DNA of 64,000 bases, taken from the NCBI RefSeq assembly GCF_964019755.1, contig NZ_OZ026469.1, positions 992,001-1,056,000 on the forward strand, written 5' to 3'. Below the pieces are notes generated by a model that was given only the letters and a program-made list of their open reading frames with translations, did no database searches and was not told where the DNA came from. A program made the translations under genes and the position numbers. Numbering within the stretch: the first letter of the stretch is position 1; the number at the start of each line of letters is the position of its first letter. Positions 11,939-63,509 of this stretch are shown here, one piece after another. Origin of the DNA: Spiroplasma endosymbiont of Polydrusus cervinus (GTDB taxonomy: Bacteria > Bacillota_I > Bacilli_A > Mycoplasmatales > Mycoplasmataceae).

Positions 11939-11955
11939 AATATTTCACTCCCTTA

Positions 11956-13800: not shown

Positions 13801-13815
13801 TAAAAAAATAATTAA

Positions 13816-14349
13816 ATGAAAAAAATATTAGTCTCCTTAATAACAATCACTTTAATTGGAATAAGTACAGCCAGTTTAGTTGCTTGTAATAATGTAGCAG
13901 AATATACACCCGAAGAATTAGCAAAACTAAAAGAAGAAAATCAAATAGACACAACGAATGAAACTGTTAAAAAAAATTTAGAATGAATAGCACCACAAGA
14001 AAAACCATTCAATCAAGTTGATGATAAATGATATTTTGTTGTATGGCGTGTAAATAAAAATGATGATTGAAAAATTATTAAATTTTTAAATGATACTTTT
14101 TTATCTGATGAGCAAACAAAAGAAATAGATTTAAAAAATAATTATGAATTATTTTTATATAAAGCCCCATATTTTCCAATAGATTTAGTGATTGGTAAAA
14201 TTAATAATATTGTTTCTATCGTCCAATGACGAGAATATATAAAAAATAAAACTTACTTTAAATCAATATACCGTTGAAATTTAGAAGAAAATAATTTACC
14301 TTATTTAGTAATTGATAATAAAGGTAATATAAAAGTTAAGGATGAATAG
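13816..14349 (+). CDS. Phage-borne lipoprotein with 'FVVWR...IIKFLND' module (copy L)
   Basis: 177 aa, 15 bases after the preceding gene, so a two-gene cargo operon. The signal MKKILVSLITITLIGIS ends with lipobox LVAC (Cys24). The mature part is Trp-rich with several TGA codons: KWYFVVWRVNKNDDWKIIKF, then about 60 residues ending SIYRW. The first segment recurs in the T tail-fibre gene near 58.9 kb, and the SIYRW-type end recurs in the M lipoprotein at 30574. Ends at T-rich terminator 14351-14382. Confidence 0.8.
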
Positions 14350-18228: not shown

Positions 18229-18273
18229 CTGCACCCAAAAAAGTAAGTAAAGAAAAAAAGTCTTTGCTAACTT
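18225..18273. repeat. Solo 5' end of the IS3-type element
   Basis: TAGACTGCACCC and the next ~37 bases of the IS 5' leader, abutting the 3' end of a complete IS copy in opposite orientation. The same ~50-bp 5'-end piece flanks the nested pair at 59018. Confidence 0.7.
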
Positions 18274-18311
18274 TAGACTGCATCCTGTTTAGTAAGTATT
18301 AATAAAAAGGT

Positions 18312-19196
18312 TTACAAACTTTCATTTATTATATATTTTTCTTTTTGGTTTGAATATCATTTATTTCATTTTTTAACATCATTAATATATTCATTATGAG
18401 ATTTATAATTTTTATTATGGATTGTTCCTTTTTTAAGTAATGAATGAAAACTTTCAATAATAATGTTGTCTGCACAATGATAATTTTTACCCATTGAAAT
18501 TATAATTTTGTTATCTAAACATTTACTATTGTAATCTTTAGATGTATATTGATATCCGTGATCTGAATGAATTATTATTTTATTTAAATCTTTTTTTATT
18601 TTTTTAATTTTATTAATTGCATCATTTAAATTATCAATTACAAGTTTGTTATTATTAAATTTTGATCATTTTACATCAATAATTTCTTTAGTATATCCAT
18701 CAAGTATTGTTGATTGATAATGTTTTTTACCATTTCAAATTAAATAAGTTACATCAGTAAATAAAATTGAAAATCTTTCTTTAATATCATTAAAATTACG
18801 ATTTACTAAATCAGGATATTTAATTATATTTTTATTTCTATTTTGTTTTATTAATATTTTTCTACGCATACGCTTTACATATTCAGCTTGAATATTATTT
18901 TCTTTCATAATTCGCAATACTTTCTTAGCATTATAAATAATGCCATAATCTTCTTTTAAATATTTGGTAATTCGACGATAACCAAATTGTTTTAAATTTT
19001 CTTCATAGACTTTTACAATATTTTTTAATGATTCGCTATCCTTACCATTACTTGAATAATTTTTATATTTATCTCAATAACTACGCTTTAAATCTGTTAT
19101 ATCAAGTAATAAATTTAGTGGATATTTATTAATGTTTTCTTTGATAAAAGATACAATTTTTCTTTTATTTAATTGTAAAAGTCATGAAGCTTTTTT
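18312..19196 (-). CDS. IS3-type OrfB, DDE transposase catalytic domain
   Basis: The frame is open from the slippery heptamer at 19196 to TAA 18312-18314 (294 codons) and is expressed as an OrfAB fusion by -1 frameshift. DDE residues are visible in LFTDVTYLIW (D), IIHSDHGYQYTS (D) and IIIESFHSLLKKG (E). TGA is used as Trp. This copy has no disabling mutation seen, so it may be active. Confidence 0.88.
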
Positions 19197-19432
19197 AGTA
19201 ATTCATACCTAACTTTGTAATAGTTTAAATCTCTTTTTTCAAATGATTCTTTTGGACCTTTATTGGTGTTTAAAATTCCTTTCTTAAAATTTTCATACCA
19301 TGAAGCAACAGTTTTTTTATTAATTTGATATTTTTTTGCAATAAAACTTATACTATTATTTTTAACCTCGTGTACTATCATTTTTCGAAAATATGCTGTA
19401 TATTTATTAAATTTTTGTCCTTTTCTTGCCAT
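19169..19432 (-). CDS. IS3-type OrfA (helix-turn-helix)
   Basis: 87 aa starting MARKGQKFNKYT at ATG 19432. The AGGAGG overlaps an upstream GTG, so the ATG is the better start. A helix-turn-helix (ISFIAKKYQINKKTVASWY) binds the IS ends. Before the stop, the minus strand carries A6G (19190-19196), the classical IS3 slippery heptamer for -1 frameshifting into orfB. Confidence 0.88.
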   Translation of the reverse strand: MARKGQKFNKYTAYFRKMIVHEVKNNSISFIAKKYQINKKTVASWYENFKKGILNTNKGPKESFEKRDLNYYKVRYELLKKLHDFYN

Positions 19433-19502
19433 ATAAAAATGCACCTCCTTTAAAGTTTAGCAAAGACTTTTTTTCTTTACTTACTTTTTTGGGTGCATTC
19501 TA

Positions 19503-19850
19503 TACACTAATGAGGTTTTAACAAAATTTAAAGATATGATTGTAAGTAATAATTTAATGGGTAAAATGAAAGGAATAATAACAGACCGCGGGAAAGAATT
19601 TAGTAAGTGAAGAGAAATGGAAATATTTGCTGAAACACAAGTATATTTTTGTGACCCTGCTTCACCACAACAAAAACCATTAATTGAATATATGAATGGT
19701 GAATTTAGACATTGATTTAAAAAAGGAACTGATTTTAATAATGTTAGTCAACAAGAAATAGATTGAGTAGTTGATGTTATAAATGATAAACTTCGACCGT
19801 ATTTAAACTGAGTAAGTGCAAAAGAAATATTTTTACAAAATATTAAGTAA
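19503..19850 (+). pseudogene. IS30-type transposase, C-terminal fragment
   Basis: Frame open from the IS3 boundary to TAA at 19848-19850, with GIITDRGKEFSKW, YFCDPASPQQKPLIE and NVSQQEIDWV. It is clearly homologous to the IS30-type gene at 22758-23702 and retains the second D and the E of the DDE triad. The N-terminal two thirds are missing, replaced by the IS3 copy. Confidence 0.85.
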
Positions 19851-20025
19851 ATTTTTATTAATTAAATTTAATAAATTATTTTTTAGTGTGTCAAAATATG
19901 TTCAAAATAATAACAATTTATAAATAATTTATTTTTTTTAAAAAATAGTTGCATTTATTTTAAATAATGTTATTATCAATTTAACAAGAGATACAAATTT
20001 GGAGCTTGTATCTACACAATGCCCT
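19851..20025. other. Non-coding IS30 3' flank and IS junction
   Basis: Very AT-rich. It includes AAAAAATAGTTGCATTTATTTTAAATAATGT-like sequence that recurs inverted beside the 22.6 kb IS30 end, and a GATACAAATTTGGAGCTTGTATC dyad. No gene. Confidence 0.4.
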
Positions 20026-20935
20026 TTTTTTATTTTTTTAATTTTATTAATTGCATCATTTAAATTATCAATTACAAGTTTGTTATTATTAAATTTTGAT
20101 CATTTTACATCAATAATTTCTTTAGTATATCCATCAAGTATTGTTAATTGATAATGTTTTTTACCATTTCAAATTAAATAAGTTACATCAGTAAATAAAA
20201 TTGAAAATATTTCTTTAATATCATTAAAATTATGATTTACTAAATCAGGATATTTAATTATATTTTTATTTCTATTTTGTTTTATTAATATTTTTCTACG
20301 CATACGCTTTACATATTCAGCTTGAATATTATTTTCTTTCATAATTCGCAATACTTTCTTAGCATTATAAACAATGCCATAATCTTCTTTTAAATATTTG
20401 GTAATTCGACGATAACCAAATTGTTTTAAATTTTCTTCATAGACTTTTACAATATTTTTTAATGATTCGCTATCCTTACCATTACTTGAATAATTTTTAT
20501 ATTTATCTCAATAACTACGCTTTAAATCTGTTATATCAAGTAATAAATTTAGTGGATATTTATTAATGTTTTCTTTGATAAAAGATACAATTTTTCTTTT
20601 ATTTAATTGTAAAAGTCATGAAGATTTTTTAGTAATTCATACCTAACTTTGTAATAGTTTAAATCTCTTTTTTCAAATGATTCTTTTGGACCTTTATTGG
20701 TGTTTAAAATTCCTTTCTTAAAATTTTCATACCATGAAGCAACAGTTTTTTTATTAATTTGATATTTTTTTGCAATAAAACTTATACTATTATTTTTAAC
20801 CTCTCGTACTATCATTTTTCGAAAATATGCTGTATATTTATTAAATTTTTGTCCTTTTCTTGCCATATAAAAATGCACCTCCTTTAAAGTTTAGCAAAGA
20901 TTTTTTTCTTTACTTACTTTTTTGGGTGCAGTCTA
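20026..20935 (-). mobile_element. IS3-family element, 3'-truncated, with altered slippery site
   Basis: The 5' end (GGGTGCAGTCTA at 20924-20935) and orfA (20603-20866) are intact, but the orfB C-terminus, including the last catalytic residues, is gone. The heptamer A6G is changed to A6T (LLKNLHD instead of LLKKLHD), which should lower frameshifting. Defective copy. Confidence 0.85.
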
Positions 20936-31152: not shown

Positions 31153-32408
31153 TTAATTATTTCTAATATCAATATTAATTTGTGTTTCATATGAATTTTG
31201 TTTTTTTTCAGTATTTTCTATTGTTTTATTTATACTTTTTAAAAATTGATCTTGGTCTAATGAAACATATTTAACAGGAATTTTTTTAAATTCCTTTCTA
31301 CAAATCTCTAGTGCTGTCTTAAGTTTATTAATTTGAATTTTATTTTTATTTATTATAGATCTTAAATCTTTATATATATAAACTCCTGAACTTACAAGAC
31401 TTGTTCCAAAATACACATTATCATTATCATCTACAGTTATTGATCTTGACACAGGTATTTTAGTTATTTTTGTTATATTATTTTTTTCTTGATTAAATAT
31501 AAAACCACCTGCTTTATTATCGTTATTTTCTCCTCAAACTGAAAAATAAATTTTATTATTTGAATTAACTGAAATTGAAATAACACTTCCATTACAACTA
31601 ATATGTTTAATAATTTTTAAATCTTTTAATATATAAATATTATTGGTTCCACCGATATAAACAGAATTATCTTTATTATTAAATCATATAAATCATACAC
31701 CTTGCGCAGGAATATCAAGCGACAGAGCAATTGTTTCACCCTTTTTAATAATAAACACACTTTATTAGCACTTAAAAAACCTAAATACAAATTATCATCT
31801 CTATCAATTGCTCGGGCAACAATATCAATATTAACATTATTATATCTTGTTAATACATTATTTTCCCATTTAAATAACCCTCTTGAATAAATAGAAAAAT
31901 AACAAACGTTGTTGATATCTGTAACAACTCAACGAACACTTCCTTCTGTTCCATCAATTTTTGTTGCATTTTGTTCATTTGATTTTAATAAATAAAATCC
32001 TTTATCTGTAGCAAAATACATATCATTATTAATTTTATTAAAAGTAATTGACCAAACATTTGTATTTGGTATTCCATCAATTTTTGTTATATTATTTTCT
32101 TTTAAATTATAAACAAATGCCCCGGCATTTACAGTTCCTAAATAAAGTTCATCATAATTTTTTTCATTAAAACATACAAAATAAATATTATAACCCAATA
32201 ATTTTTCTATTTTTTCAATATAAAAATCATCGTCAATACTTTTTTTGCTTCTTTTTAAATTTCCTAAATTATTTTTTTGTAAAGAATTAATTTTACTATT
32301 TTCTAGATTAATTTTTTCTTCTTTTTGATAAGGACTAGCAGCAATTGTTGTTGGTACAGCAGTTCCACTAATAGTTAATACACTTAATAAACTAAGTAAT
32401 TTTTTCAT
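31153..32408 (-). pseudogene. Phage-borne propeller-like surface protein (copy M), frameshifted
   Basis: ATG at 32408 after ACGGAGAAAAAC; the signal peptide is MKKLLSLLSVLTISG and onward. The mature protein has short beta units of the type NDMYFATDKGFYLLK, DNLYLGFLSANK, DNVYFGTSL, suggesting a propeller. A one-base change near 31757-31765 (AAAGTGTGTTT) shifts the frame. The remainder runs to 31153 and ends in a helical tail. The domain type differs from the L and T genes at the same position, although the signal peptide is the same. Confidence 0.75.
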
Positions 32409-32461
32409 ACTTGTTTTTCTCCGTTTCTTAATCTCTAAACTTTTTATCAAGATTTAATTTC

Positions 32462-32498
32462 ATTATATATATATATATATATATATATATACAAACAA
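32462..32498 (-). promoter_or_regulatory. Promoter with (TA)n spacer for the M surface-protein gene
   Basis: Minus strand: TTGTTT (32493-32498), a 25-base GT-(AT)n spacer, TATAAT (32462-32467). That is four TA units longer than the 17-base optimum and two longer than L and T, so this copy should be off or weak. Confidence 0.65.
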
Positions 32499-32609
32499 AA
32501 TTATCACTTATTTTAATAAATTTATCTTTCCAAATAATTCCTATTACGTTTTTTAACCGCTAAATTAATAATAAAATATATTAAGTTTAGTATTAGTTTA
32601 TAAAAAGTA

Positions 32610-32637
32610 TTGTATTTATAAACTATTGATATATAAT
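32610..32637 (+). promoter_or_regulatory. Late promoter of scaffold-capsid operon (copy M)
   Basis: TTGTAT, 16-base spacer, TATAAT, conserved with L and T. The leader (32640-32724) has a CTTTTT-ccgta-AAAAAG hairpin and a CTTGT...ACAAG hairpin, then AAAGAGGAG before the scaffold ATG. Confidence 0.65.
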
Positions 32638-32724
32638 TAATTTATAGGTTTAATCTTTTTCCGTAAAAAAGAGTTACGCTGACTTGTTAATCTGACAAGG
32701 ATAAAAAAAGAGGAGTTTATAAAA

Positions 32725-33186
32725 ATGGCACTTACAAAAGAACAATTAATCGAACAAGGTTTAAGTGAAGAGATTGCAGAAAATATCTTAAATCAGTTTA
32801 ATAATGAAGCAAAGCAAATTAGAGAAAGTGTGCAAAAACGCGAAGATGTTATTTCAAAAGAAGACTTTATTAAATTATCTACTGAATTAGATGAATTAAA
32901 GGCTTTTAAAGATGTTCCATCTACTAAAATTGAAGATATTAAAACTAATTTAGATAAAGTTAGTGGTAATTCTTTATCTGAAAAAATGCAAACTTTAAAA
33001 GAATTAAAACCTGATTTGTTTGTGCAAGAACAACCATCAGTTTCACCAACTAATTTTATTAAAGAAATGATTGAAAATTCGGTTGAAAATAAGAATGATG
33101 AAATTGAAACTATTAAAGAAAAAGGAGCATATACTCCGGAAGAAATTAAAAAATTAACTGATTATACACTTAAAAACCTTAGATAA
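32725..33186 (+). CDS. Putative capsid scaffold protein (copy M, intact)
   Basis: 153 aa, AGAGGAG ribosome site. Almost entirely charged helix (Glu, Lys, Asp, Ile, Leu), with the C-terminus GAYTPEEIKKLTDYTLKNLR. Composition, size and place directly before the capsid gene fit a scaffolding protein of tailed phages. No protease motif is seen. Copies L and T are broken. Confidence 0.65.
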   Translation: MALTKEQLIEQGLSEEIAENILNQFNNEAKQIRESVQKREDVISKEDFIKLSTELDELKAFKDVPSTKIEDIKTNLDKVSGNSLSEKMQTLKELKPDLFVQEQPSVSPTNFIKEMIENSVENKNDEIETIKEKGAYTPEEIKKLTDYTLKNLR

Positions 33187-33201
33187 TAAGGAGTGAATAT
33201 T

Positions 33202-34467
33202 ATGGCAACAATTAATTTGCCACAAGTACCTTTTACATTACAAGGTAATACAACAGGCCAAAAAGCGTATGTTGATATGGTTAATGCTTTATTGCGCGGA
33301 CCTTTATATAATGAATATGCAAGCATTATGCAATATGCAACAGCAACAGCCGAACAAGTTGCTTGACTGCCTAATGCAGGACAAGCATTATATAATTTAA
33401 CTCATCGTGTGGTATGACAAGATGATTATGCATTACCAAATGGTGGAGCAACTCAAACTATGGGATTAACAAGAATTCCAGTTCCGATTGATAAAAGATT
33501 TAATTTAAAATTAATGAATGAGGCTTTTGATTTAGCATTAATAGAACAAAATATTAAAAATGGTGTTATTGCTAACGCTATTTCTAGTGTTGTCCAGAAT
33601 AAATTTGTTAATTTAGAATGTGAATTAATTCAGGCTATTTATGATTATTGTTTAGCAGATGATCAATATGAAGTAATTCCATTTCGTAGTTATACAGCAG
33701 AAAAAGCAGATGACGCAAATAAAGCATTCTTTACATTAAATGAAACTTTAATTGAATTAACTAATCAAATTAGTAATCTATATTTTGGTTTGCCAACCGA
33801 TAAAATGTTTATGGTTTTAGGACGAAGAGCCTATTTAGGATTAACACCGGCTTATTTAAAAGTAATTGGTTCACAAGCTCAATTAAAAGCAATGGTTAAT
33901 GGTGAATTATATGAAAATACCGCAATGGGTATTCCGGTATCAAAAAGTTTTCATTTAGAAAAAACATATACAAAAGGACAAGTTAACCGAGATAAAGGTT
34001 ATAATTTTACTAATATAAATGGTTTACTTATTAATAAACACGTATGAGCATATCCAATTAATATGGATACTATTCAACAAGTTTTAGATAATGATACTGC
34101 TAACCCTAAATGAATTGGTAAAGTACAATATGCAACACCAACTATTTTATATCCAAAAACATGTAAAATTATTTTAGAAAAAGCACCTACACAAGAAGAA
34201 ATTAATCAAGCAATTAATAACTTAAATAAAACTTATCGTGTTCCTATTGATTATATTAGAACAATAATTACACAACATAATTTAGGAAAAATTATAATGT
34301 CAGGAGAAACTCCTAGTGTTTCTGAATTAGAAACAGCAATTAAAGCAAAAAACATTAATTATCAAAATGGTGATGCAATATTTACTAATATAACAGCTAC
34401 TGGTGCATTAGCAACCGCTAACCCTAATAAATATAGTGAAACCGTTAATTTAACTTATTCAAAATAA
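33202..34467 (+). CDS. Major capsid protein (copy M, intact)
   Basis: 421 aa, ATG at 33202, GGAGTGAA upstream, 15 bases after the scaffold stop. The conserved core (residues ~1-345) is shared with L and T. After the SKSFHLEK to NPKWIGKVQYATPTILYP segments the C-terminal ~75 residues (NLGKII...SETVNLTYSK) are unique to M and resemble the ~80-aa repeat of the L/T surface proteins rather than the L/T capsid tail. Capsid identity is inferred from gene order and high conservation. Confidence 0.7.
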
Positions 34468-34480
34468 GTAATATGTAATT

Positions 34481-35398
34481 ATGAATTTATTAATATTACG
34501 AGCTTTAACTTTATTAGCAGAAAATTTAGGAAATAAATATTTAATAAATAAGTTTGTTAATTTAATTAATAAGGTTAATAAGTTTGCTTCATATTATGCT
34601 AATTCTTTTCAAAAGATTACAAATAAAGTTGAAGATATTTATCAATGATTAAATCCGTTTACTTATTTAAATTTAATTAAAAAAGGTCATAAAAAAGAAA
34701 TTCAACAAATATTAAGTAAATTAGAAAAAGATAACAATATTAAAAATAGAGAACAATTTAAAAAAGAAAATTATCTAAACACTAATTGACAACCTTTAAA
34801 TAGTAGTTGGCTTAATAGTGGTATGTTTAATATAACAAATAAGTTAACTTTAACAGGCAATTTAACTATTTTAATATATACAAAAACAGCAAAACACCCG
34901 AATTTTTATGGTCCATATGTTTATCCTAGTGTTCCAGTTGAAATTTGAAAATTATTAAGTAATGCAGCATCTAATGCTGGAACTTTATTTTGGCGTTATT
35001 GATTAAGAAAATGATTACCTAGTCATTTAAGAGATTATATTAAAAAACGATTACCACAAGAATTAAAAGAAAAATATCCAAAAGGAAATATCAAATTAAC
35101 ATTACCACATATTCAAAAATTACAACAAATTAAAAGGTTTATTAATAATTTAAAGATTGGACACTTTAATTTTAATTTTGCTGGTGAAATTAATAATAAA
35201 AAATGGTATCGAGAGCGAAAAAGCGATGTTAAAAATATTAAGAATTTATATAAAACACCAGTTAAAAGTATGTTTTATAAAACTAATCAAACTATTAAAA
35301 AAATTAAAAAAGTACAAAGAAAAGTTAATAGTTATAAACTATCTAATTTAAGAAATAAATATCGAAATCAATTAAGGGGTGTTTTATATGGAAAATAA
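34481..35398 (+). CDS. Phage late protein downstream of capsid (copy M, full length)
   Basis: 305 aa, starting MNLLILRALTLLAENLGNK. The middle is Trp/Tyr/Pro-rich (TKTAKHPNFYGPYVYPSVPV); the C-terminal 100 residues are very basic and helical, ending RGVLYGK. The end overlaps the next ATG by 11 bases. L has a shortened copy and T a frameshifted one. A connector or adaptor role is only positional. Confidence 0.65.
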
Positions 35399-36562
35399 TT
35401 TAAGTAATTTGTTATTTATAACAGTTGAAGGTGTTAAAGCAAGTAAACTTTGACAACCTATTAATGATCGTAAGCAATCTGCTTATAATGATAATTTAAT
35501 TTATAATGCTATTTTAAAAACTAGTTTATGAATGGATAGATTATCAGGTGGCACAATTTCAGATAAGATTAATAAAAAAGATTTATTTCCCTGAGTGAAA
35601 AAAGATAATACTGGTTTAATTGAATATGATAAATGATTAAGTTATATTCAATCTGCTTGTTTATTAGCAGTTATGAATTGATATTTACCAAAAGGAGTTA
35701 ATGATTTAACTGGTAGTGCTTCATTTTCGCAAGGTGGAGTTGCTTATTCACAAACTAATGACCCCGAAGCAAATGAAAATATTACTAGAGATGTTAAAAA
35801 TGCTTTAAAATTAGCTGGTGAAATAATTGATATTATATCTAGTAAAACGGTTGATAGACCATATAATTATCATTTAGGGAATTATGCTCATCCTTGAGAA
35901 GAAGAATATAAATATATTACGAAAAAAACATTTTATGAAACTTTATTATTTTATTTAAAAGAACGAGTACAAACCGATAATACTATTAATATTACTCATC
36001 CAGAAATTATTGATTATAGCAAAATTGATTATAACGAATATATTAAGCTTATTGTTCCGTTTGATAAGATACTATTTATTATGATAACGGGGTTTGAAAA
36101 TCCCAAAAAAGTTCTGATATTAAGATTGATAATAAAACTATCATTAAAAATGATAATGATGAAATTGTAGTTTCAGATTTTAAACAAGATAAATTAATAA
36201 GCGGATCAAATATTAAAACTATTAATGGTAATTCACTACTAGATAGTGGTGATATTTCTATTAATGGTAATGATTGAGAATTAATTAATTATACAAAAGC
36301 AAACGAAAAATTAACATTTAAAATTCCAGATTATGATTTAACAAAATATTATTATAAAATATCAATTTCAATAACAGATTATGCATCTGCTAATAAATTT
36401 GTAACATATTATTTTGAAACAATATCACAAAAATCAATATTTACATTTTTAGCAGATAATTCTTATAAAAGAATAACAATTAACCAAAATGGTTCAATTT
36501 CAAATGATACAAATAATATTGTTATTAAATATTTAACAATTAAAAGAAAAAAAATAAATTAG
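35388..36562 (+). pseudogene. Tail-fibre/appendage protein (copy M), one-base deletion
   Basis: ATG at 35388 overlaps the previous gene. Residues 1-~225 match the T copy. At 36064-36069 one A is missing (GATAAGATA versus GATAAAGATA), so the frame ends after 260 codons at TAG 36168. Restoring the base extends it to 36562 with SGSNIKTINGNSLLDSGD, a motif common before receptor-binding tips of phage fibres and baseplates. A beta-rich tip with an N-D-W-E-L-I start follows. The C-terminus is entirely different from that of T. Confidence 0.7.
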
Positions 36563-42901: not shown

Positions 42902-43136
42902 TGTAAATTGTAAATACCAAATCATAAAAAGTTAACTATTAATTTAGTTAACTTTTTAAGTTAATTATAGGAGGTTGAAATTATGCAAATAAAGCACTAT
43001 TTAATTTTGCGGTCTTAGTGAAAAAGTATGGTAAAGATATTGTTATTAATACTGTCAATAAGATTACAAATGATATTGAAATTAAAAAGTAAAGAATAAA
43101 TTATCCCGCGTAATTTACAATCTTCAATTAACTTTC
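42902..43136. repeat. MITE-like element, copy A (ORF broken)
   Basis: Starts TGTAAATTGTAAATACCAAA and contains the hairpin AAAAAGTTAACTA / TAGTTAACTTTTT, an AGGAGG and an ATG (42983). A missing G (GGTCTTAG versus GGTCGTTAG) creates a stop after 11 codons. Ends TAATTTACAATCTTCAATTA. Confidence 0.8.
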
Positions 43137-43287
43137 AGTTACTTCCAACTGGTGGTTGTTGTGGTTTGGGTTCTGGTTTATTACTCGCCGTTTTCACTAT
43201 TATTTGGTTTTTCGCAACTAATTAACGATGTTGTACACTTGTTGCTGTTAATCCGATTACTCCTAAAATACTTAAAATTTTATAATT
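43125..43287 (-). pseudogene. Lipoprotein signal-peptide remnant
   Basis: Minus-strand KILSILGVIGLTATS, then in a shifted frame TTSLISCEKPNNSENGE (lipobox LISC), then NKPEPKPQQPPVGSN in the first frame. The start Met and the rest of the gene are missing. The first 28 bases are repeated inverted just upstream of the IS30 gene. Confidence 0.6.
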
Positions 43288-43325
43288 ATTGCACATAAAT
43301 TATAAAATTTTAAGTATTTTAGGAG
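43260..43325. repeat. Perfect 28-bp inverted repeat covering the transposase ribosome site
   Basis: CTCCTAAAATACTTAAAATT... (43260-43287) is the exact inverse of 43298-43325, with a 10-base loop. The right arm ends in AGGAG of the IS30 transposase ribosome-binding site. Confidence 0.85.
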
Positions 43326-43332
43326 GTAGGGT

Positions 43333-44319
43333 ATGAAAAAATATGAAAGATTAGATTTTAATGAAAGAGTAAATTTGGAAAAATTAAAAGATAATGAATT
43401 ATTTAAAAAGAAAAATGAAACAATTAATATTCGAAAAATTGCTAAGCAAATGAATAGAGATTATAGAACTATTTGGCAAGAGTTAAATATGTTTGATAAT
43501 ATTAATGATTATAATGCTGCAAAAGCACAAAAAATACATGATAAAAATAAAAAACAATGTCGTAAATATTCAATGTTAAATTCACAAGAATTAAGTCATT
43601 TTTCTAATGAATATAATAATTTTGGTCGTTCGCTACAAAATATTATTACTTCGTATGAATTACAATATAATGTAAAATTTGGTGTATGTTTTAAAACAAT
43701 GTATAAATATATTAAATTAGGTTATTTTAATTTAAAAAAAGAAATGTTATATTTTAAAAATAAAAAAAGAAAAACAAAAAATGGGGAACAAAATGATAAT
43801 CGTGGAAAATTACTTAATATTAGAGATTATAACCAATTTTTAAATGATTATGGAAATGATTTAAGTTTTAGTGGAATTTGAGAAATGGATACTCTTGATT
43901 GTGGTAATTTTTATTTGTTAGTTTTAGTAAATCGTAAATCAAAAATACTTTTTTATCATATTTTATTTAGTAAAAAGGCAAGTATTGTATTAACAATTTT
44001 AATGAAAATGATTAAACAAATTGGTATTAGTAAATTTAGTTGTATTTTAATCGATAGAGAAAAAGAATTTTATAGATGAAAAACAATAGAAAAAAATTTT
44101 AAAATAAGAGTTTATTTTTGTGATCCTGGTAAACTTCGCCAGAAAGCATTAGTAGAAAGAATAAATAGATATATAAGGAGTTGATTAGGTCAAAATGAGC
44201 CATTAATTAATACTCGTAGTAGATTAAAATCTATTTTAGATATATTAAATACCACAATTAGACCTTGCTTGGAAAATTTTACATCAAGACAATATTTTAA
44301 AAAAATTTTTTTAAATTAA
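43333..44319 (+). CDS. IS30-family transposase
   Basis: 328 aa through TGA (Trp) codons. HTH part IRKIAKQMNRDYRTIWQEL; DDE residues in GIWEMDTLDCGNFYLL (D), SCILIDREKEFYRW (D) and LRQKALVERINRYIR (E). ATG at 43333 follows AGGAGGTAGGGT, which is buried in the right arm of the inverted repeat. Divergent from the IS30 gene at 22758, so a separate element. Confidence 0.88.
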
Positions 44320-44430
44320 ATTAGTGTTTGTTAAGATTAGTAAAATTTATTTTTTGTTGTATTTAATTTTATAATTTTAAAAATAAATATTAAAAACAAT
44401 ATTTTTAATTTAATATTTTTGTGATTATTG
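44320..44430. other. AT-rich IS30 downstream flank
   Basis: No gene; long A/T tracts and an ATTTTTAATTTAATATTTTT-type dyad that may be the IS end or terminator. Confidence 0.3.
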
Positions 44431-44493
44431 TTTTTTATTTTTAATTTGTTATAATTTTATTAACTTTTTATGATTTAGTTTTACAGTATACAA
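44431..44493 (+). repeat. Solo right-end repeat upstream of mnmA
   Basis: TTTGTTATAATTTTATTAAC followed by TTTTTATGATTTAGTTTTAC and AGTATACAA. A direct copy lies at 45693-45757 and an inverted one at 63455-63509. The last part is the right terminal repeat of the MITE-like element. It carries TATAAT at about 44450, which could serve as mnmA promoter. Confidence 0.8.
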
Positions 44494-44503
44494 AAGGAAG
44501 TGA

Positions 44504-45643
<1,140 letters not shown>

Positions 45644-45692: not shown

Positions 45693-45757
45693 TTTTTTTT
45701 ATTTTTAATTTGTTATAATTTTATTAACTTTTTATGATTTAGTTTTACAGTATACAA
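45693..45757 (+). repeat. Solo right-end repeat downstream of mnmA
   Basis: About 60 bases identical to 44431-44493 in the same orientation, so mnmA is bracketed by direct repeats. The bases 45644-45692 before it have no feature. Confidence 0.8.
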
Positions 45758-48447: not shown

Positions 48448-48685
48448 TGTAAATTGTAAATACCAAATCATAAAAAATTAACTATTAATTTAGTTAACTT
48501 TTTTAAGTTAATTTTTAAGTTAATTATAGGAGGTTGAAATTATGCAAATAAAGCAATATTTAATTTTGCGGTCGTTAGTAAAAAAGTATGGTAAAGATAT
48601 TGTTATTAATACTGTCAATAAGATTGCAAATGATATTGAAATTAAAAAGTAAAGAATAAATTATCCCGCGTAATTTACAGTATAC
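48448..48685. repeat. MITE-like element, copy B (intact ORF, right end shortened)
   Basis: TGTAAATTGTAAATACCAAA to TAATTTACAGTATAC. Compared with copy C, the segment between two TTTACA sites is deleted. Lies between def and leuS promoters. Confidence 0.85.
48542..48652 (+). CDS. 36-aa peptide of the MITE-like element (copy B)
   Basis: MQIKQYLILRSLVKKYGKDI and on to EIKK. A perfect AGGAGG eight bases before the ATG follows a 12-bp hairpin. Identical product in copy C; broken in copy A. A helix-rich basic peptide; function unknown. Conservation of the frame and strong ribosome site suggest it is translated. Confidence 0.6.
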   Translation: MQIKQYLILRSLVKKYGKDIVINTVNKIANDIEIKK

Positions 48686-48743
48686 AAAATTTGCGAACAA
48701 TGTTATAATTAAAAAAGATAAAAATTTAGAAAGGGTAATAAAG

Positions 48744-53352: not shown

Positions 53353-53360
53353 TGTAAGTG

Positions 53361-53624
53361 GTAAATACCAAATCATAAAAAGTTAACTATTAATTTAGTT
53401 AAATTTTTTAAGTTAATTTTTAAGTTAATTATAGGAGGTTGAAATTATGCAAATAAAGCAATATTTAATTTTGCGGTCGTTAGTAAAAAAGTATGGTAAA
53501 GATATTGTTATTAATACTGTCAATAAGATTGCAAATGATATTGAAATTAAAAAATAAAGAATAAATTATCCCGCGCAATTTACAATCTTCAATTAACTTT
53601 TTATGATTTAGTTTTACAGTATAC
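53361..53624. repeat. MITE-like element, copy C (most complete)
   Basis: Left end TGGTAAATACCAAATCATAA and AAAGTTAA; right end TTAACTTTTTATGATTTAGT then TTTACAGTATAC. The ends are imperfect ~26-bp inverted repeats (AAATCATAAAAAGTTAA core). Inside: a hairpin, AGGAGG and the 36-aa ORF. Confidence 0.85.
53447..53557 (+). CDS. 36-aa peptide of the MITE-like element (copy C)
   Basis: Same peptide as copy B; one silent change in the Lys codons before the stop (AAA for AAG). AGGAGG spaced eight bases. See the finding on this element. Confidence 0.6.
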   Translation: MQIKQYLILRSLVKKYGKDIVINTVNKIANDIEIKK

Positions 53625-53774
53625 AAGTTTTATCTGTTGTATTTATTTTATTCTTTTCTTTTAGTTCTTTTAATTCTTCGGGTGTATATTCTGCTACATT
53701 ATTACAAGCAACTAAACTGGTTGTACTTATTCCAATTAAAGTGATTGTTATTAAGGAGACTAATATTTTTTCAT
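53625..53774 (-). pseudogene. Phage-borne lipoprotein (copy T), frameshifted and truncated
   Basis: Counterpart of 13816. ATG at 53774, but the A7 run after ATG has lost one A, giving MKKY and a stop. Restored, it reads MKKILVSLITITLIGIST with lipobox LVAC and EYTPEELKEL, and is then cut off by repeat copy C. Confidence 0.8.
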
Positions 53775-53789
53775 TTAATTATTTTTTTA

Positions 53790-54632
53790 TTATCAATTAA
53801 GTGAATCTATTGAATTAGAATAATTAACATCTATATTTCCAATATAAACAGTTAAATCAGAAGAATTAATAGTTGCTTTGTTATTATTAATATTTTCAAC
53901 TTTTATTTTATCAATATCTACCCGTGGATTTAATTCTTTTATTTTATCTTTAATTTGATTATCTGTTGGTATACTTAGACCATTAGTTTTTATTACACCC
54001 AAATTATTATTTTTTATATAAAAACCTAGTCGTAAGGTATATTTAACATCTGTTTCACCAGTATAAACGTTTATATCATTTGAAGCAATTTTAGAAGACT
54101 GTGTACTAAGTAGTTTAATATTAATTTTTGAAATGTTTAATGACGGAAATAATTTTTTTAATTTATCTTTAATTTGTATTTCACTTATATTTACAATATT
54201 TTGTTTACCCTCCTCATTATCAATTATTTGACCTAAACTAGCATTATTTGGAATTATAGTATTTAAATCAACAGATTTATCAATTATAAAATTAATTGTT
54301 TTCGTATTACTAAAACCAGTTAGAGTGATTACCGCGCTATTTTCAGTAATTTTTGTAACATTAATGTTATTAATATTTAATTGAGGATTTAATTCTTTTA
54401 CTTTATTTTTGATTTGTTTTTCAGTTGGTCTGTCAGCTCCATTAGTTTTAAATATATGTTTAGTTTGATTGTTTTTTGTGTCTCTTTTATTTTTATTTAT
54501 ATTTAAACCTGTTCAATTTAATTCAGATAAATCTTTAATAGTATTTTTTTGATAAGGAATATCAGCAATCATTATTGGCACACCAGTTCCACTAATTGTT
54601 AATATGCTTAATAAGCTTAGTAATTTTTTCAT
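53790..54632 (-). CDS. Phage-borne secreted surface protein with ~80-aa repeats (copy T)
   Basis: 280 aa. Nearly identical to the L gene at 12712 but exactly 82 codons shorter: it jumps from the third repeat's KDKIKEL to the NPRVDIDKIKV of the last repeat. ATG at 54632 after AAAGGGAG. Antisense to the T capsid operon. Preceded by the (TA)n promoter at 54667-54699. Apparently intact. Confidence 0.8.
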
Positions 54633-54666
54633 ACTTATATTTCTCCCTTTTTCAATTTCTATTGAC

Positions 54667-54699
54667 ATTATATATATATATATATATATATACAAGCAA
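54667..54699 (-). promoter_or_regulatory. Promoter with (TA)n spacer for the T surface-protein gene
   Basis: Minus strand TTGCTT (54694-54699), 21-base G-(TA)n spacer, TATAAT (54667-54672); same geometry as copy L. Confidence 0.65.
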
Positions 54700-54810
54700 A
54701 ATTATTAATTATTTTAAAAATTTTATCTTGTTAAATAACCATTATCACGCGTTTTAAGACCTAAAATGGTAATAAAATATATTAAGTTTAGTATTTATGT
54801 ATAAAAAGTA

Positions 54811-54838
54811 TTGTATTAGTAAAATAATAGTATATAAT
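54811..54838 (+). promoter_or_regulatory. Late promoter of scaffold-capsid operon (copy T)
   Basis: TTGTAT, 16 bases, TATAAT, as in L and M, followed by the same two leader hairpins. Confidence 0.65.
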
Positions 54839-54926
54839 TAATTTATAGATTTAATCTTTTTCCGTAAAAAAGAGTTATGCTAACTTGTTAATCGAACAAG
54901 AATAAAAAAAAGAGGAGTTTATAAAA

Positions 54927-55380
54927 ATGGTACTTACAAAAGAACAATTAATCGAACAAGGTTTAAGTGAAGGGATTGCGGAAAATATCTTAAATAAGTT
55001 TAATAATGAAGCAAAACAAATTAGAGAAAGTGTGCAAAAACGCGAAGATGTTATATCAAAAGAAGACTTTATTAAATTATCTAATGAATTAGATGAATTA
55101 AAGGCTTTTAAAGATGTGCCGTCTACTAAAATTGAAGATATTAAAACTAATTTAGAAAAAGTTAGTGGTAGTTCTTTAAATGAAAACTTTAAAAGAATTA
55201 AAACCTGATTTGTTTGTACAAGAACAGCCATCAATTTAACCTGGTAATTTTATTAAAGATATGATTGAAAAATCTTCTGAAAATAAAAATGATGAAATTG
55301 AAACTATTAAAGAAAAAGGAGCATATACTTCTGATGAAATTAAAAAATTAACTGATTATACACTTAAAAACATTAGATAA
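54927..55380 (+). pseudogene. Scaffold-like protein (copy T), 8-bp deletion and nonsense
   Basis: Matches the M scaffold up to KVSGSSL. Eight bases are then missing relative to M, shifting the frame; a TAA (TCA changed) follows QPSI in the original frame. The C-terminal DEIKKLTDYTLKNIR is still recognisable. Confidence 0.8.
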
Positions 55381-55395
55381 TAAGGAGTGAATATT

Positions 55396-56764
55396 ATGGC
55401 AACAATTAATTTTCCACAAGTACCTTTTACATTACAAGGTAATACAACAGGGCAAAAAGCCTATGCTGATATGGTTAATGCTTTATTGCGTGGACCTTTA
55501 TATAATGAATACGCAAGTATTATGCAATATGCAACTGCAACAACCCAACAAGTCGCGTGATTACCAAATGCTGGTCAAGCATTATTATATAATTTAACTC
55601 ATCGTGTGGTATGACAAGATGATTATGCATTACCAAATGGTGGAACAACTCAAACTATGGGATTAACAAGAATTCCAGTTCCTATTGATAAAAGATTTAA
55701 TTTAAAATTAATGAATGAAGCATTTGATTTAGCATTAATATAACAAAATATTAAAAATGGTGTTATTGCTAACGCTATTTCTAGTGTTGTACAGAATAAA
55801 TTTGTTAACTTAGAGTGTGAATTAATTCAGAGGATTTATGATTATTGTTTAGCAGATGGTCAATATCAAGTTATTCCATTTCGTAGTTATACAGCAGAAA
55901 ATGAGAATGATGCAAATAAAACATTCTTTACATTAAATGAAACTTTGATTGAATTAACTAATCAAATTAGTAATCTATATTTTGGTTTACCAAGATAAAA
56001 TGTTTATGGTTTTAGGACGACGTGCATATTTAGGGTTAACACCTGCTTATTTAAAAGTAATTGGTTCACAAGCGCAATTAAAATCAATGGTTAATGGTGA
56101 ATTATATGAAAATACAGCAATGGGTATTCCTGTATCTAAAAGTTTTCATTTAGAAAAAACATATACAAAAGGACAAGTTAACCGCGATAAAAGTTATAAT
56201 TTTACTAATGTAAATGGTTTACTTATTAATAAACAAGTATGGGCATATCCAATTAATATGGATACTATTCAACAAGTTTTAGATAATGATACTGCTAACC
56301 CTAAATGAATTGGTAAAGTACAATATGCTACTCCAACTATTTTATATCCAAAAACATCTAAAATTATTTTAGAAAAAGTACCAACACAAGATGAAATTAA
56401 TGCTGCAAAAAGTAATCTAAATAAAACTTTTAGAGTTCCTGTTGATTATGTAATTCCATCATCAAATAAAGTTAATATTAGTAAAATTAATAAAATTGAA
56501 CAACCTAATATTAAAGTAAATAATCCTGTTAGTGTTTCACAAGAAGAATTAAAACCACAATTTAAAAGTGTTGTTTTAAAAGCAGTAAAAACAGTAGATA
56601 ATTCTTTAACTAAAAATGATTTTGATTACTTTATTGAAAGTAAAGGTGAAGAATGACCAATAAATATTACAAATTATAAAACTGTTGAAGTTCAAATTAA
56701 AGGTAAAAACAACGCTACTGGTAAAACAAAGCCTATTGATATAGTAATTAAAAATTCTCAATAA
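55396..56764 (+). pseudogene. Major capsid protein (copy T), broken
   Basis: Same start as M. There is an inserted TTA codon (ALLYNL), a GAA-to-TAA change after LALI (near 55741), and a frameshift at FGLPR near 55993. From 55998 on, the frame is clean, with the L-type C-terminal domain (EELKPQFKSVVLKAVKTVD...GKTKPIDIVIKNSQ). Confidence 0.85.
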
Positions 56765-56767
56765 AAA

Positions 56768-57687
56768 ATGAACTTATTAATATTACGAGTTTTAACTTTA
56801 TTAGCAGAAAATTTAGGCAATAAACTTATAATAAATAAGTTCGTTAATTTAATTAATAAAGTTAATAAGTTTGCTTCATATTATGCTAATCCTTTTCAAA
56901 ATATTACAAATAAAATTGAAGATGTTTATAAGTGATTAAATCCTTATACTTATGTAGATTTAATTAAAAAAGGTCATAAAAAAGAAATTCAACAAATATT
57001 AAGTCAATTAGAAAAAGATAATAATATTAAAAATAGAGAACAATTTAAAAATGAAAATTATCTAAATACTAATTGACAATCTTTAAATAGTAGTTGACTT
57101 GATAGTGGAATGTTTAATATAACAAATAAGTTAACTTTATTAACAGGTAATTTAACTATTTTAATATATACAAAAACAGCAAAAAATCCTAAGTTTTATG
57201 GTCCATATGTTTATCCTAGTGTTCCAGTTGAAATATGAAAATTATTAAGTAATGCTGTATCTAATGCAGGGACTTTATTTTGGCATTATTGATTAAGAAA
57301 ATGATTACCTAGTTATTTAAGAAATTATATTAAAAAAGATTACCACAAGAATTAAAAGAAAAATACTCAAAAGGAAATATTAAATTAACATTATCAACAG
57401 TTCAAAAATTACAACAAATTAAAAGGTTTATTAATAATTTAAAGATTGGGCATTTTAATTTTAATTTTGCTGGTGAAATTAATAATAAAAAATGATATCG
57501 AGAGCGAAAAAGTGATGTTAAAAATATTAAGAATTTATATAAAACACCAGTTAAAAGTATGTTTTATAAAACTAATCAAACTATTAAAAAAATTAAAAAA
57601 GTACAAAGAAAAGTTAATAGTTATAAACCATCTAATTTAAAAAATAAATATCATAATCAATTAAGGGGTATTTTATATGGAAAATAA
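56768..57687 (+). pseudogene. Phage late protein downstream of capsid (copy T), frameshifted
   Basis: Homologue of 34481. One C is missing in AAAAAAGATTACC (near 57336; M has AAAAAACGATTACC), giving a stop shortly after. The remainder, including the basic C-terminus, continues in the other frame to TAA 57685-57687. Confidence 0.8.
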
Positions 57688-59017
57688 TTTAAGTAATTTG
57701 TTATTTATAACAGTTGAAGATGTTAAAGAAAGTAAATTTTGACAACCTATTAATGACCGTAAGCAATCTGCTTATAATGATAATTTAAAAACTAGTTTAT
57801 GAATGGATAGATTATCAGGTGGAACAATTTCAGATAAAATAAATAAAAAAGATTTATTTCCCTGAGTAAAAAAAGATAATACTGGAATAATTGAATATGA
57901 TAAATGATTAAGTTATATTCAATCTGCTTGTTTATTAGCAGTTATGAATTGGTATTTTATTTACCAAAAGGAGTTAATGATTTAACTGGTAGTGCATCAT
58001 TTTCACAAGGTGGAGTTGCTTATTCACAAACTAATGATCCTGAATCAAATGAAAATATTACTCGTGATGTTAAAAATGCTTTAAAATTAGCTGGTGAAAT
58101 AATTGATATTATATCTAGTAAAACAGTTACAAGACCATATAATTATCATTTAGGGAATTATGCTCATCCTTGAGAAGAAGAATATAAATATATAACTAAA
58201 AAAACATTTTATGAAGTATTATTATATTATTTAAAAGAAAGAGTGCAAACTGACAATGCTATTAATATTACTCATCCAGAAATTATTGATTATAGTAAAG
58301 TTGATTATAACGAATATATTAAGATTATTGTTCCGTTTGATAAAGATACTATTTATTTTGATAGTGGAGTTTGAAAAGGCATCATGTGCGATGAAGCCGA
58401 TATTAAAGAATTAAATATTGTTTTGTTAAATTATTTAACATATCGTTATAATTATGACCGTAAATTTCAAGGTGCAAAATACGATGAAAAAGGTAATCCT
58501 AGCAATAAAGCGGCTGAATTACGTCAAAAATTCGAAGATGTTATTGGCGGTTTATTTGAAAACTGAAAATTAGATAATTTTACTTCTTTAAATGATAATG
58601 CTGTCAAAAGATTTAAACAAGTGATATACATGTTATCAAATTATACATATAGTAAATATGCGATTAATAAAGGTTATAATGATGATGTTAAATTGTTTTA
58701 TCCTTATTATTTTGAATTAATATCTAATCCACGAGAATTAGAAACTGGATATTGAATTTTTGAACATTACAAAGTTAAATTAAATTCATCATATTTTAAT
58801 TTTACTGGTGGGGACCTGCTACGCTAACTCCAATAAATTATTGAGAAAAGGTTTATTCTGATGATCAACCATTTAAAGAAGTTTATATTAAATATTGTTT
58901 TGTAGTTTGGCGTAGTGATACAAGTAATAATTGAAGAATTATTAAATTTTTGAATGATACAAATAGTAAAAAAGAATTAGATAGTTATGGTAGATATAAA
59001 CTTATTTTTAAAGATAT
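57677..59017 (+). pseudogene. Tail-fibre/appendage protein (copy T), frameshifted and IS-truncated
   Basis: Matches the M fibre to AVMNWY, where a short insertion (near 57955) shifts the frame. It is clean again from LPKGVNDLTGSASFS through YIKIIVPFDKDTIYF. It then has a T-specific C-terminus: GVWKGIMCDEADIKELN, a TGG to FELISNPRELETGYWIF region, and after another shift near 58815 the module CFVVWRSDTSNNWRIIKFLND shared with the L lipoprotein. The gene is cut by the IS3 end at 59018. Confidence 0.8.
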
Positions 59018-59067: not shown

Positions 59068-59137
59068 TAGACTGCACCCAAAAAAGTAAGTAAAGAAAAA
59101 AAGTCTTTGCTAAACTTTAAAGGAGGTGCATTTTTAT

Positions 59138-59401
59138 ATGGCAAGAAAAGGACAAAAATTTAATAAATATACAGCATATTTTCGAAAAATGATAGTACAA
59201 GAGGTTAAAAATAATAGTATAAGTTTTATTGCAAAAAAATATCAAATTAATAAAAAAACTGTTGCTTCATGGTATGAAAATTTTAAGAAAGGAATTTTAA
59301 ACACCAATAAAGGTTCAAAAGAATCATTTGAAAAAAGAGATTTAAACTATTACAAAGTTAGGTATGAATTACTAAAAAAGCTTCATGACTTTTACAATTA
59401 A
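59138..59401 (+). CDS. IS3-type OrfA
   Basis: 87 aa, ATG at 59138, nine bases after AGGAGGTGC. HTH as in the 19169 copy. Slippery heptamer A6G at 59374-59380 directs -1 frameshifting. Confidence 0.88.
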   Translation: MARKGQKFNKYTAYFRKMIVQEVKNNSISFIAKKYQINKKTVASWYENFKKGILNTNKGSKESFEKRDLNYYKVRYELLKKLHDFYN

Positions 59402-60258
59402 ATAAAAGAAAAATTGTATCTTTTATCAAAGAAAACATTAATAAATATCCACTAAATTTATTACTTGATATAACAGATTTAAAGCGTAGTTATTGAGATA
59501 AATATAAAAATTATTCAAGTAATGGTAAGGATAGCGAATCATTAAAAAATATTGTAAAAGTCTATGAAGAAAATTTAAAACAATTTGGTTATCGTCGAAT
59601 TACCAAATATTTAAAAGAAGATTATGGCATTGTTTATAATGCTAAGAAAGTATTGCGAATTATGAAAGAAAATAATATTCAAGCTGAATATGTAAAGCGT
59701 ATGCGTAGAAAAATATTAATAAAACAAAATAGAAATAAAAATATAATTAAATATCCTGATTTAGTAAATCGTAATTTTAATGATATTAAAGAAAGATTTT
59801 CAATTTTATTTACTGATGTAACTTATTTAATTTGAAATGGTAAAAAACATTATCAATCAACAATACTTGATGGATATACTAAAGAAATTATTGATGTAAA
59901 ATGATCAAAATTTAATAATAACAAACTTGTAATTGATAATTTAAATGATGCAATTAATAAAATTAAAAAAATAAAAAAAGATTTAAATAAAATAATAATT
60001 CATTCAGATCACGGATATCAATATACATCTAAAGATTACAATAGTAAATGTTTAGATAACAAAATTATAATTTCAATGGGTAAAAATTATCATTGTGCAG
60101 ACAACATTATTATTGAAAGTTTTCATTCATTACTTAAAAAAGGAACAACCCATAATAAAAATTATAAATCTCATAATGAATATATTAATGATGTTAAAAA
60201 ATGAAATAAATGATATTCAAACCAAAAAGAAAAATATATAATAAATGAAAGTTTGTAA
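59374..60258 (+). CDS. IS3-type OrfB, DDE transposase domain
   Basis: Intact frame from the heptamer to TAA 60256-60258, with LFTDVTYLIW, IIHSDHGYQYTS and IIIESFHSLLKKG carrying D, D and E. Functional-looking; produced as OrfAB. Confidence 0.88.
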
Positions 60259-60296
60259 ACCTTTTTATTAATACTTACTAAACAGGGTGCAGTCTA

Positions 60297-61474
60297 CTTT
60301 AAAGGAGGTGTATTTTTATATGGCAAGAAAAGGACAAAAATTTAATAAATATACAGCATATTTTCGAAAAATGATAGTACACGAGGTTAAAAATAATAGT
60401 ATAAGTTTTATTGCAAAAAAATATCAAATTAATAAAAAAACTGTTGCTTCATGGTATGAAAATTTTAAGAAAGGAATTTTAAACACCAATAAAGGTCCAA
60501 AAGAATCATTTGAAAAAAGAGATTTAAACTATTACAAAGTTAGGTATGAATTACTAAAAAAGCTTCATGGCTTTTACAATTAAATAAAAGAAAAATTGTA
60601 TCTTTTATCAAAGAAAACATTAATAAATATCCACTAAATTTATTACTTGATATAACAGATTTAAAGCATAGTTATTGAAATAAATATAAAAATTATTCAA
60701 GTAATGGTAAGGATAGCGAATCATTAAAAATATTGTAAAAGTCTATGAAGAAAATTTAAAACAATTTGGTTATCGTCGAATTACCAAATATTTAAAAGAA
60801 GATTATGGCATTGTTTATAATGCTAAAAAGTATTGCGAATTATGAAAGAAAATAATATTCAAGCTGAATATGTAAAGCGTATGCATAGAAAAATATTAAT
60901 AAAACAAAATAGAAATAAAAATATAATTAAATATCCTGATTTAGTAAATCGTAATTTTAATGATATTAAAGAAAGATTTTCAATTTTATTTACTGATGTA
61001 ACTTATTTAATTTGAAATGGTAAAAAACATTATCAATCAACAATACTTGATGGATATACTAAAGAAATTATTGATGTAAAATGATCAAAATTTAATAATA
61101 ACAAACTTGTAATTTATAATTTAAATAATGCAATTAATAAAATTAAAAAAATAAAAAAAGATTTAAATAAAACAATAATTCATTCAGATCACGGATATCA
61201 ATATACATCTAAAGATTACAATAGTAAATGTTTAGATAACAAAATTATAATTTCAATGGGTAAAAATTATCATTGTGCAGACAACATTATTATTGAAAGT
61301 TTTCATTCATTACTTAAAAAAGGAACAATCCATAATAAAAATTATAAATCTCATAATGAATATATTAATGATGTTAAAAAATGAAATAAATGATATTCAA
61401 ACCAAAAAGAAAAATATATAATAAATGAAAGTTTGTAAACCTTTTTATTAATACTTACTAAACAGAGTGTAGAC
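60297..61474 (+). mobile_element. Remainder of the interrupted IS3-type copy, degenerate
   Basis: Starts at CTTTAAAGGAGGTG and includes orfA (60320-60583) with an intact A6G heptamer. orfB has single-base losses (TTAAAAATATTG near 60731 and GCTAAAAAGTATTG near 60820) that break it. The right end is altered (GAGTGTAGACTGC). Confidence 0.85.
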
Positions 61475-61478
61475 TGCA

Positions 61479-62141
61479 AGTAGTAATCAAAAAAATGACA
61501 AAGCAAGCATTACTAATTTTATAGATAAAATTTTTAAATTAATGGATACTTATGAAATTAACGAAGATACTAAAATTTTAATATTACGCGATGGTGACCG
61601 TTGAATTAAAAAAATTTACAAAGCAATAAAAGAAAAATACAAAAACAGGATTCTATCATATAGTTTGGATAAATTTCATTTAATAAATAGATTTAAACAA
61701 TTATTTCCCTATCGTAGAAGAAATAAAATTCACAGATTAAAATATAATTGAGCAAAAAAATTTTTCTTTGCTGGATATCATGAAGCATTATTAAATTTAT
61801 TAAATTCTAATTTACCTTATGTTTTTGGAAATAAAAAGGGATTTTTATTACAAACTATTAAATTAATTGAAAATAATGAAGCGGGTGTTAAAAACCAAGC
61901 ATTAGAATATAATATTGGTTGTCACATGGAAGGTGATATTTCACATTACATTAAAGCTGTTAAAGGGCGTGGAGCAAAAATATATTGTAAAGAAACATTT
62001 AACAATATGTTAATTGTTTCAATATTAAGACTTAATAATAAAGCTAATAAAACTAATGAAGAAGAAATTGAATTTAATATTTTTAATTTAAATCAACTTC
62101 AAAGTTTAAATTATTTTCAAAACAAGTTTTTATTTATTTAA
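61479..62141 (+). pseudogene. UPF0236/ISLre2-like transposase, C-terminal fragment
   Basis: 221 codons open from the IS3 border to TAA 62141. ILRDGDRWIKKIY, YSLDKFHLINRFKQLFPYRR, a helical stretch, then the Cys/His-type EYNIGCHMEGDISHYIKAVKGRGAKIY. This is the pattern of the transposase-like protein found in mycoplasma ICEs (Mbov_0401 type); family call from memory. The N-terminal half is missing. Confidence 0.65.
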
Positions 62142-62544: not shown

Positions 62545-63465
62545 GTGACAACAAATATTCATTGATTTCCTGGCCATATGGCAAAAGCAATTAAAAAAAT
62601 TGACGAACAAAGTAAATTGATTGATTTGGTGATTGAAATTGTTGATAGTCGCATTCCGTTTTCCTCGTCAAATCCGTTAGTTGATAACTTACGTGGTTCA
62701 AAACCAAAGTTAGTTATTTTAAATAAAAAAGATTTAGCAGATCCAGTTACTATTAAGTCATGACTTAATTATTATCAGCAACAACAAATTTCCGTTTTAC
62801 CGTTAGATAGTAAACATGCTAATATTACAAAATTAATTATTGAAAAAATTAATTTTATTTGTGCCCCAAAAATGGAACGCGATAAAAAATGGGGAATTAA
62901 GACTCCTAAAGTAAAAGTATTAGTAATCGGGATTCCAAATGTTGGGAAATCTACTTTTATTAATGCCTTAGTGAAGCGAAATTCCGCCCGGATTGGAAAT
63001 AAACCGGGTGTAACAAAAGGGCAACAATGATTAAAATTAAATCAGCAAATTGATTTAGTTGATACCCCAGGGATTTTATGACCAAAAATTGAAGATTCAC
63101 AAGTAGCATTAAATTTAGCTTTTACCCGTTCAATTAAAGACGACATTTTGCCAAAAGAAGAAATTTGTTTAGCAGCAATTAAATGAATGCAGCAACATTA
63201 TTTTTCCTTATTGGTAAAAGAGTATCATTTGACAACAAGGGATAATTTTGTAATAACAGATGAAAGGGACCTTTTTCAATTATTATTAATAATGCAACAA
63301 AATCGCTTTCATAAAGTTGATGAGGGCAATGTCAATAACATTGTTACTGACTTTCTCAACAAGTTATGAAATAACAAATTTGGGTTAATGTCGTTTGAAT
63401 TTCCCCCAGCAAGCGGAGCAACCAACACCTGATGAATAAATTTGAACAAGAGGTATATACTGTAA
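62545..63465 (+). CDS. rbgA: Ribosome biogenesis GTPase RbgA (YlqF)
   Basis: 306 aa. GTG at 62545 after [28 protein letters not shown] is the family N-terminus. Circularly permuted GTPase: NKKD (G4) at residues 60-63 precedes GIPNVGKST (G1, residues ~133-141) and DTPG (G3). Needed for late 50S assembly. The last residues (RYILYC) and the stop lie inside the GTATACTGTAAAAC repeat, so the original C-terminus may have been replaced. TGA is Trp throughout. Confidence 0.95.
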
Positions 63466-63509
63466 AACTAAATCATAAAAAGTTAATAAAATTATAACAA
63501 ATTAAAAAT
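63455..63509 (-). repeat. Solo right-end repeat between rbgA and the permease, inverted
   Basis: GTATATACTGTAAAACTAAATC... through TTATAACAAATTAAAAAT; inverse of the repeats around mnmA. Supplies the rbgA stop codon. Confidence 0.8.

Follow-up and report, generated by a model that had tools for sequence, protein, structure and literature searches.

Plectroviruses of the SpV1 type, which include SpV1-C74, SpV1-R8A2B and SkV1, form the genus Vespertiliovirus (Plectroviridae). According to the ICTV, members of Vespertiliovirus replicate by transposition, and a circular intermediate of this process is packaged (PMC8295915). The genomes of Citri-clade Spiroplasma contain many dispersed plectrovirus fragments (PMC3563533, PMC8140453). 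The window analysed here is a stretch of 64,000 bases, corresponding to bases 992001-1056000 of a single-contig genome of 1,120,781 bp, in which TGA is read as Trp. Congeners include Spiroplasma poulsonii (NZ_CM020866.1) and S. phoeniceum (CP110830.1). The window holds three related copies of a repeated element, A, B and C, starting at 42902, 48448 and 53353. These copies are very probably internally deleted proviruses of SpV1-type plectroviruses that move, or have moved, as an IS30-like transposon.

The elements share with Vespertiliovirus the same ORF14, the surrounding gene order and a lipoprotein remnant before the transposase, and transposon-like integration is common to both. However, ORF12 through ORF1 are absent from them, a loss of about 6.1 of 7.7 kb that makes virions impossible, and the elements represent a derivative rather than a member virus. 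Dispersed viral pieces are also typical of the Citri-clade genomes, whereas here one discrete deleted form has been amplified to at least 40 copies. Copy A resembles the IS30 family in its IS30-type DDE transposase, which scores above the curated cut-off, and in its terminal inverted repeats; in addition, the parent virus displays joined ends with a short spacer, seen as a tandem R-TTC-L junction between right (R) and left (L) ends. It differs from this family in being 1.6 kb long and carrying a phage gene and a lipoprotein remnant. The window's copies are furthermore without a clear target duplication, while the parent virus has one of 3 bp (TTC). Copies B and C are similar to MITEs in that they are short, inverted-ended and transposase-free, and their ends are shared with copy A, i.e., they are the ends of an autonomous partner. 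Unlike MITEs, each of them is single-copy, has a different deletion and contains a coding frame; many copies of one short form were not found.

Copies, ends and private deletions

The features of the window are as follows.

42902-44492, + strand: copy A, full-length mini-provirus (1,591 bp) with L, frameshifted ORF14, lipoprotein-gene remnant, IS30-family transposase and R
42902-42935, + strand: L end of copy A; bounds the complete S. phoeniceum virus (locus L092) with one base different
42983-43092, + strand: ORF14 remnant in A; a 1-base deletion, also present in six other copies, breaks the frame
43100-43135, + strand: junction of the founding deletion, where the left half of the ORF14 terminator meets the region preceding the transposase
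43260-43325, + strand: near-perfect inverted repeat with the transposase ribosome site paired in the stem (fold -31.7 kcal/mol, z -9.85)
43333-44319, + strand: IS30-family transposase, 328 aa (TGA as Trp); NCBIfam NF033563 with 133.7 bits (cut-off 80), Pfam rve
44447-44455: candidate extended -10 TGTTATAAT just inside the R end of copy A, directed outward toward mnmA (44510)
44460-44492, - strand: R end of copy A; matches the R end of the complete S. phoeniceum virus
45724-45756, - strand: R end standing alone between mnmA and the following gene
48448-48686, + strand: copy B, 239 bp; private internal deletion with TTTACA microhomology, intact ORF14, without transposase
48542-48652, + strand: ORF14 in B, 36 aa, intact
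53353-53625, + strand: copy C, 273 bp; private internal deletion with TTAACTTT microhomology, intact ORF14, without transposase
53447-53557, + strand: ORF14 in C, 36 aa, intact
63454-63486, + strand: solitary R-type end before the gene starting at 63525

All three copies contain the L-end hairpin, AGGAGG and a frame beginning with MQIKQYLILRSLVKKYGKDI..., in which one glutamine codon is different in A. The 36-aa peptide is the same in B and C, while the frame of A is one base short. In these points, and in recognising a mobile repeat whose inverted ends are imperfect, the preliminary description was accurate: L and R share a core of 17 identical bases within ~34 bases, most of which match. Its limits for these repeats had to be redrawn to TGTAAATTGTAAATACC... 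(L) and ...GTTTTACAGTATACA (R), and it is from these true ends that the extent of copy C given above follows. In copy A, the L end is TGTAAATTGTAAATACCAAATCATAAAAAGTTAA, and the R end, in inward reading, is TGTATACTGTAAAACTAAATCATAAAAAGTTAA. With up to 2 mismatches allowed, the window contains the core AAATCATAAAAAGTTAA 8 times compared to 0.8 expected, and with up to 1 mismatch the genome contains it 317 times compared to 0 for the reversed control. An Rfam search of the window returned no matches.

The proposed family of ~260-bp coding MITEs did not hold up, as A is 1,591 bp long and B and C are private deletions of the 1.6-kb mini-provirus. Relative to A, the deletion in B lies between TTTACA repeats, with ...AATTTACA joined to GTATACA, and the deletion in C lies between TTAACTTT repeats, with ...CAATTAACTTT joined to TTATGATTT. 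The right end of B is ...AATTTACAGTATACA, that of C ...TTCAATTAACTTTTTATG..., and this difference indicates two separate deletions instead of copies of one miniature element. Neither right end was found in any other of the 42 copies aligned. Copy B is inserted just before the leuS promoter; five relatives match in the leuS promoter and have no element before leuS. Copy C is located at the edge of a provirus-like gene cluster (window 53626-58827), to which clusters near 9828-13965 and 32291-35981 are related (three copies in all). The product of 55982-56764 shares 80% identity with a protein that Spiroplasma phage MaM-2019a from S. poulsonii encodes (OL689226/OL689230; annotated as capsid in OL689227).

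Other repeats are present in the window as well. The stretches 18264-20926 and 59068-61486 contain near-identical repeated IS-like elements in tandem or adjacent copies, which are probably of the IS3 type.

The complete virus and the founding deletion

The genome of S. phoeniceum contains, at locus L092 (CP110830), a complete SpV1-like virus in the form of two tandem 7.7-kb units, each with the gene order ORF14-12-7-4-13-11-10-2-5-9-1-transposase. In each unit, L is found at the start, just before ORF14, and R at the end, just after the IS30-family transposase. The units are joined as R-TTC-L, and TTC is also present at both outer flanks of the pair. This arrangement is the signature of transposition with a 3-bp duplication and of units joined end to end. 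The transposase of this virus is 89% identical to that at window 43333-44319, and its L end is nearly the same as that of copy A, with one base different. In the reference genomes of C74, SkV1 and R8A2B, the L and R ends of the window elements were not seen.

Copy A aligns with virus positions 1-218 (of 7,705) at 95% identity and with positions of about 6,327-7,705 at 81-92%, the right 1.23 kb reaching 92%. Between the aligned parts, ~6.1 kb of the virus, ORF12 through ORF1, are missing. The element is thus collinear with the virus, having ORF14 on the left, the transposase on the right and the same L and R ends, while a complete virion gene set was not found in the window elements. A complete plectrovirus was likewise not found in the window's genome, which contains ORF1 remnants only; the parent is therefore deduced from the sister species.

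The founding junction yields at least 40 scored matches in the window's genome. In nine related Spiroplasma genomes no match spans it, and only one side or the other is found. A single founding deletion therefore gave rise to the 1.6-kb form, which subsequently multiplied. The form consists of L, ORF14, lipoprotein remnant, transposase and R; at least 40 copies exist, of which many have decayed. Genome-wide, the transposase occurs in many pieces, nearly all with stops, and among the best 150 matches listed no transposase of this kind other than that of copy A is full-length and uninterrupted. The inverted repeat before the transposase is similar in other copies (L003-L030), where it is perfect or near-perfect; its arms covary between copies and in some copies mirror the lipoprotein side. 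A second group of transposases (~35% identical) has nearly intact frames of ~320-335 aa (G000:C1:106207-107175, 238399-239361, 703177-704139) and is possibly the currently active IS30 family in this genome.

ORF14 in viruses and resident copies

By sequence identity, the 36-aa peptide is ORF14 of the SpV1-type Spiroplasma plectroviruses, a known small phage gene. In tblastn searches against phage records it was 89% identical to ORF14 of SpV1-C74 and 81% identical to that of SkV1, in both cases over all 36 residues. A diverged ORF14 with an ATT start is still recognisable in R8A2B, and PHROG 21884 covers residues 1-36 of the peptide. Relatives sought in Pfam, NCBIfam and PDB were not found, so homology assigns no function to it. 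ORF14 occurs 49 times in the window's genome and is found in 9 of 13 other genomes of the genus. Elsewhere among 60 relatives it is essentially absent; the single marginal match (E = 8e-4) comes from another family. Among the congeners, ORF14 is mostly located directly before ORF12 and ORF7, i.e., it lies within virus genomes or pieces thereof. The earlier suspicion that the peptide frame is a real gene was thus justified, and the gene is that of a phage.

Among the viral sequences, ORF14 is under purifying selection, with a pN/pS of about 0.30 (codon bootstrap 0.13-0.70). The 42 resident copies comprise 24 that keep the 36 aa, 17 with one-base indels and one that has lost the stop. Two broken classes have multiplied to 8 and 7 copies and account for most of the frameshifts; since frameshifted copies multiplied, ORF14 is not needed in cis. 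Substitutions among the 42 copies (S=20, N=53) agree with the expected synonymous fraction of 0.25 (P = 0.69), and the substitution rate in ORF14, 1.6%, lies within the 0.9-2.6% of its immediate neighbours in the aligned segments. An uncurated rate comparison had hinted at a slower ORF14 than flanks, a hint that disappeared once the comparison was restricted to aligned segments. A maintained function of the peptide in the resident copies, as first envisaged, is contradicted by the frameshifts, the neutral substitutions and a rate like that of the neighbours; the frame changes as often as its flanks, which is the pattern that the preliminary description itself had set against such a function. 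ORF14 matters, or mattered, to the virus; the remnants show no visible constraint, although a weak one could be masked by redundancy among the copies. In the mini-elements, ORF14 is most likely a passenger on which selection is undetectable.

Mobility, alternative origins and meaning

In the proposed mechanism, an IS30-like transposase, supplied by copy A or by earlier sources, would act on L and R and thereby mobilise the copies. The deleted 1.6-kb form would move like an insertion sequence, while B and C, as later private deletions of this form, would be movable only in trans. For copies A, B and C, no matching target duplications were found. Over 32 paired ends in the genome, 6 duplications were seen compared to 3.0 expected, and 34 of 500 shuffles were as high, so that target duplications are at most weakly above chance. 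Insertion into terminator hairpins was considered as well; inverted-repeat-like flanks were seen, albeit not above shuffled pairings.

Single ends are found as palindromes too, with about thirty 80-bp L-L forms, perfect or near-perfect, in the window's genome (e.g., G000:C1:88013-88058 and 212478-212523) and none in the nine related genomes tested. Their variant bases sometimes change together on both arms. The R-R forms are mostly near 190 bp; in L047, L052, L056, L059, L062 and L063, the two arms match each other better than they match other copies. Identical 60-base arms were found in 6 of 8 R-R forms, compared to 3.6% identical among between-palindrome comparisons (0 of 2,000 shuffles), which points to an origin by fold-back copying of single ends or to arms that are held equal.

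The R end of the virus contains a TTGATT-16-TATAAT pair with an extended -10, directed outward and thus toward ORF14 at joined ends, although promoter-like matches are common in AT-rich DNA, with 8 found compared to 5.1 expected in the virus stretch. It is proposed that ORF14 is expressed when the ends are joined. In the virus, the R promoter would cross the R-L junction and make ORF14 an early gene transcribed from the circle or dimer, whereas in single integrated copies ORF14 would be cut off from it. In copy A, the candidate extended -10 of the R end faces outward (window 44447-44510); it stands directly before mnmA and may drive this gene.

Several other readings were weighed against that of a deleted provirus. 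A coding MITE in its own right, with a peptide that is kept because it helps the element or the host, would account for the good ribosome site, the identical frame in B and C and the 36-aa frame kept in 24 of 42 copies. It is opposed by the 17 frameshifted copies with broken classes grown to 8 and 7, by an N:S ratio as under neutrality with an ORF rate like that of the neighbours, and by the origin of B and C as single-copy deletions of a longer element; this reading is largely refuted and the least probable of all. An ordinary IS30 element that came first and captured the phage gene ORF14 later would be in line with the IS size and IS30-family transposase of copy A, and the IS30-type annotation of ORF3 in R8A2B implies a transposase pool shared with insertion sequences. 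Yet the mini-element follows the complete virus collinearly in gene order, in both ends, in the lipoprotein remnant and in ORF14, the middle alone being missing, and the common deletion junction was found in the window's genome and in none of the nine relatives compared. Had ORF14 been captured, both viral flanks would need to have been restored by chance, which makes such a composite most improbable.

Equally improbable is a domesticated immunity, in which intact ORF14 blocks plectrovirus superinfection and favours hosts with many copies. The 24 intact copies, the lack of any complete plectrovirus found in the window's genome and the conservation of ORF14 in viruses are compatible with it. 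Against it, no selection is visible among the copies, though redundancy could hide it, and sister genomes with dozens of ORF14 copies are also rich in plectrovirus sequence. The more specific idea that ORF14 is a phage immunity or repressor peptide expressed from the joined R-L ends of the circle, with intact copies protecting this Spiroplasma from plectroviruses, is very unlikely.

As a deleted provirus, the element is neat but mostly ordinary genome junk: a phage remnant that has lost most genes and kept its jumping ends, with a decaying peptide gene. With exact ends and breakpoints, it documents how a filamentous phage of 7.7 kb was reduced step by step to an IS-like element of 1.6 kb and then to scraps of 240-270 bp. 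A further lesson is one of caution, as short frames that are conserved in what look like MITEs can turn out to be hitch-hiking phage genes. For the viruses, it provides the integration ends and the 3-bp duplication of an SpV1-like virus, a member of a group that had earlier been proposed to replicate by transposition.
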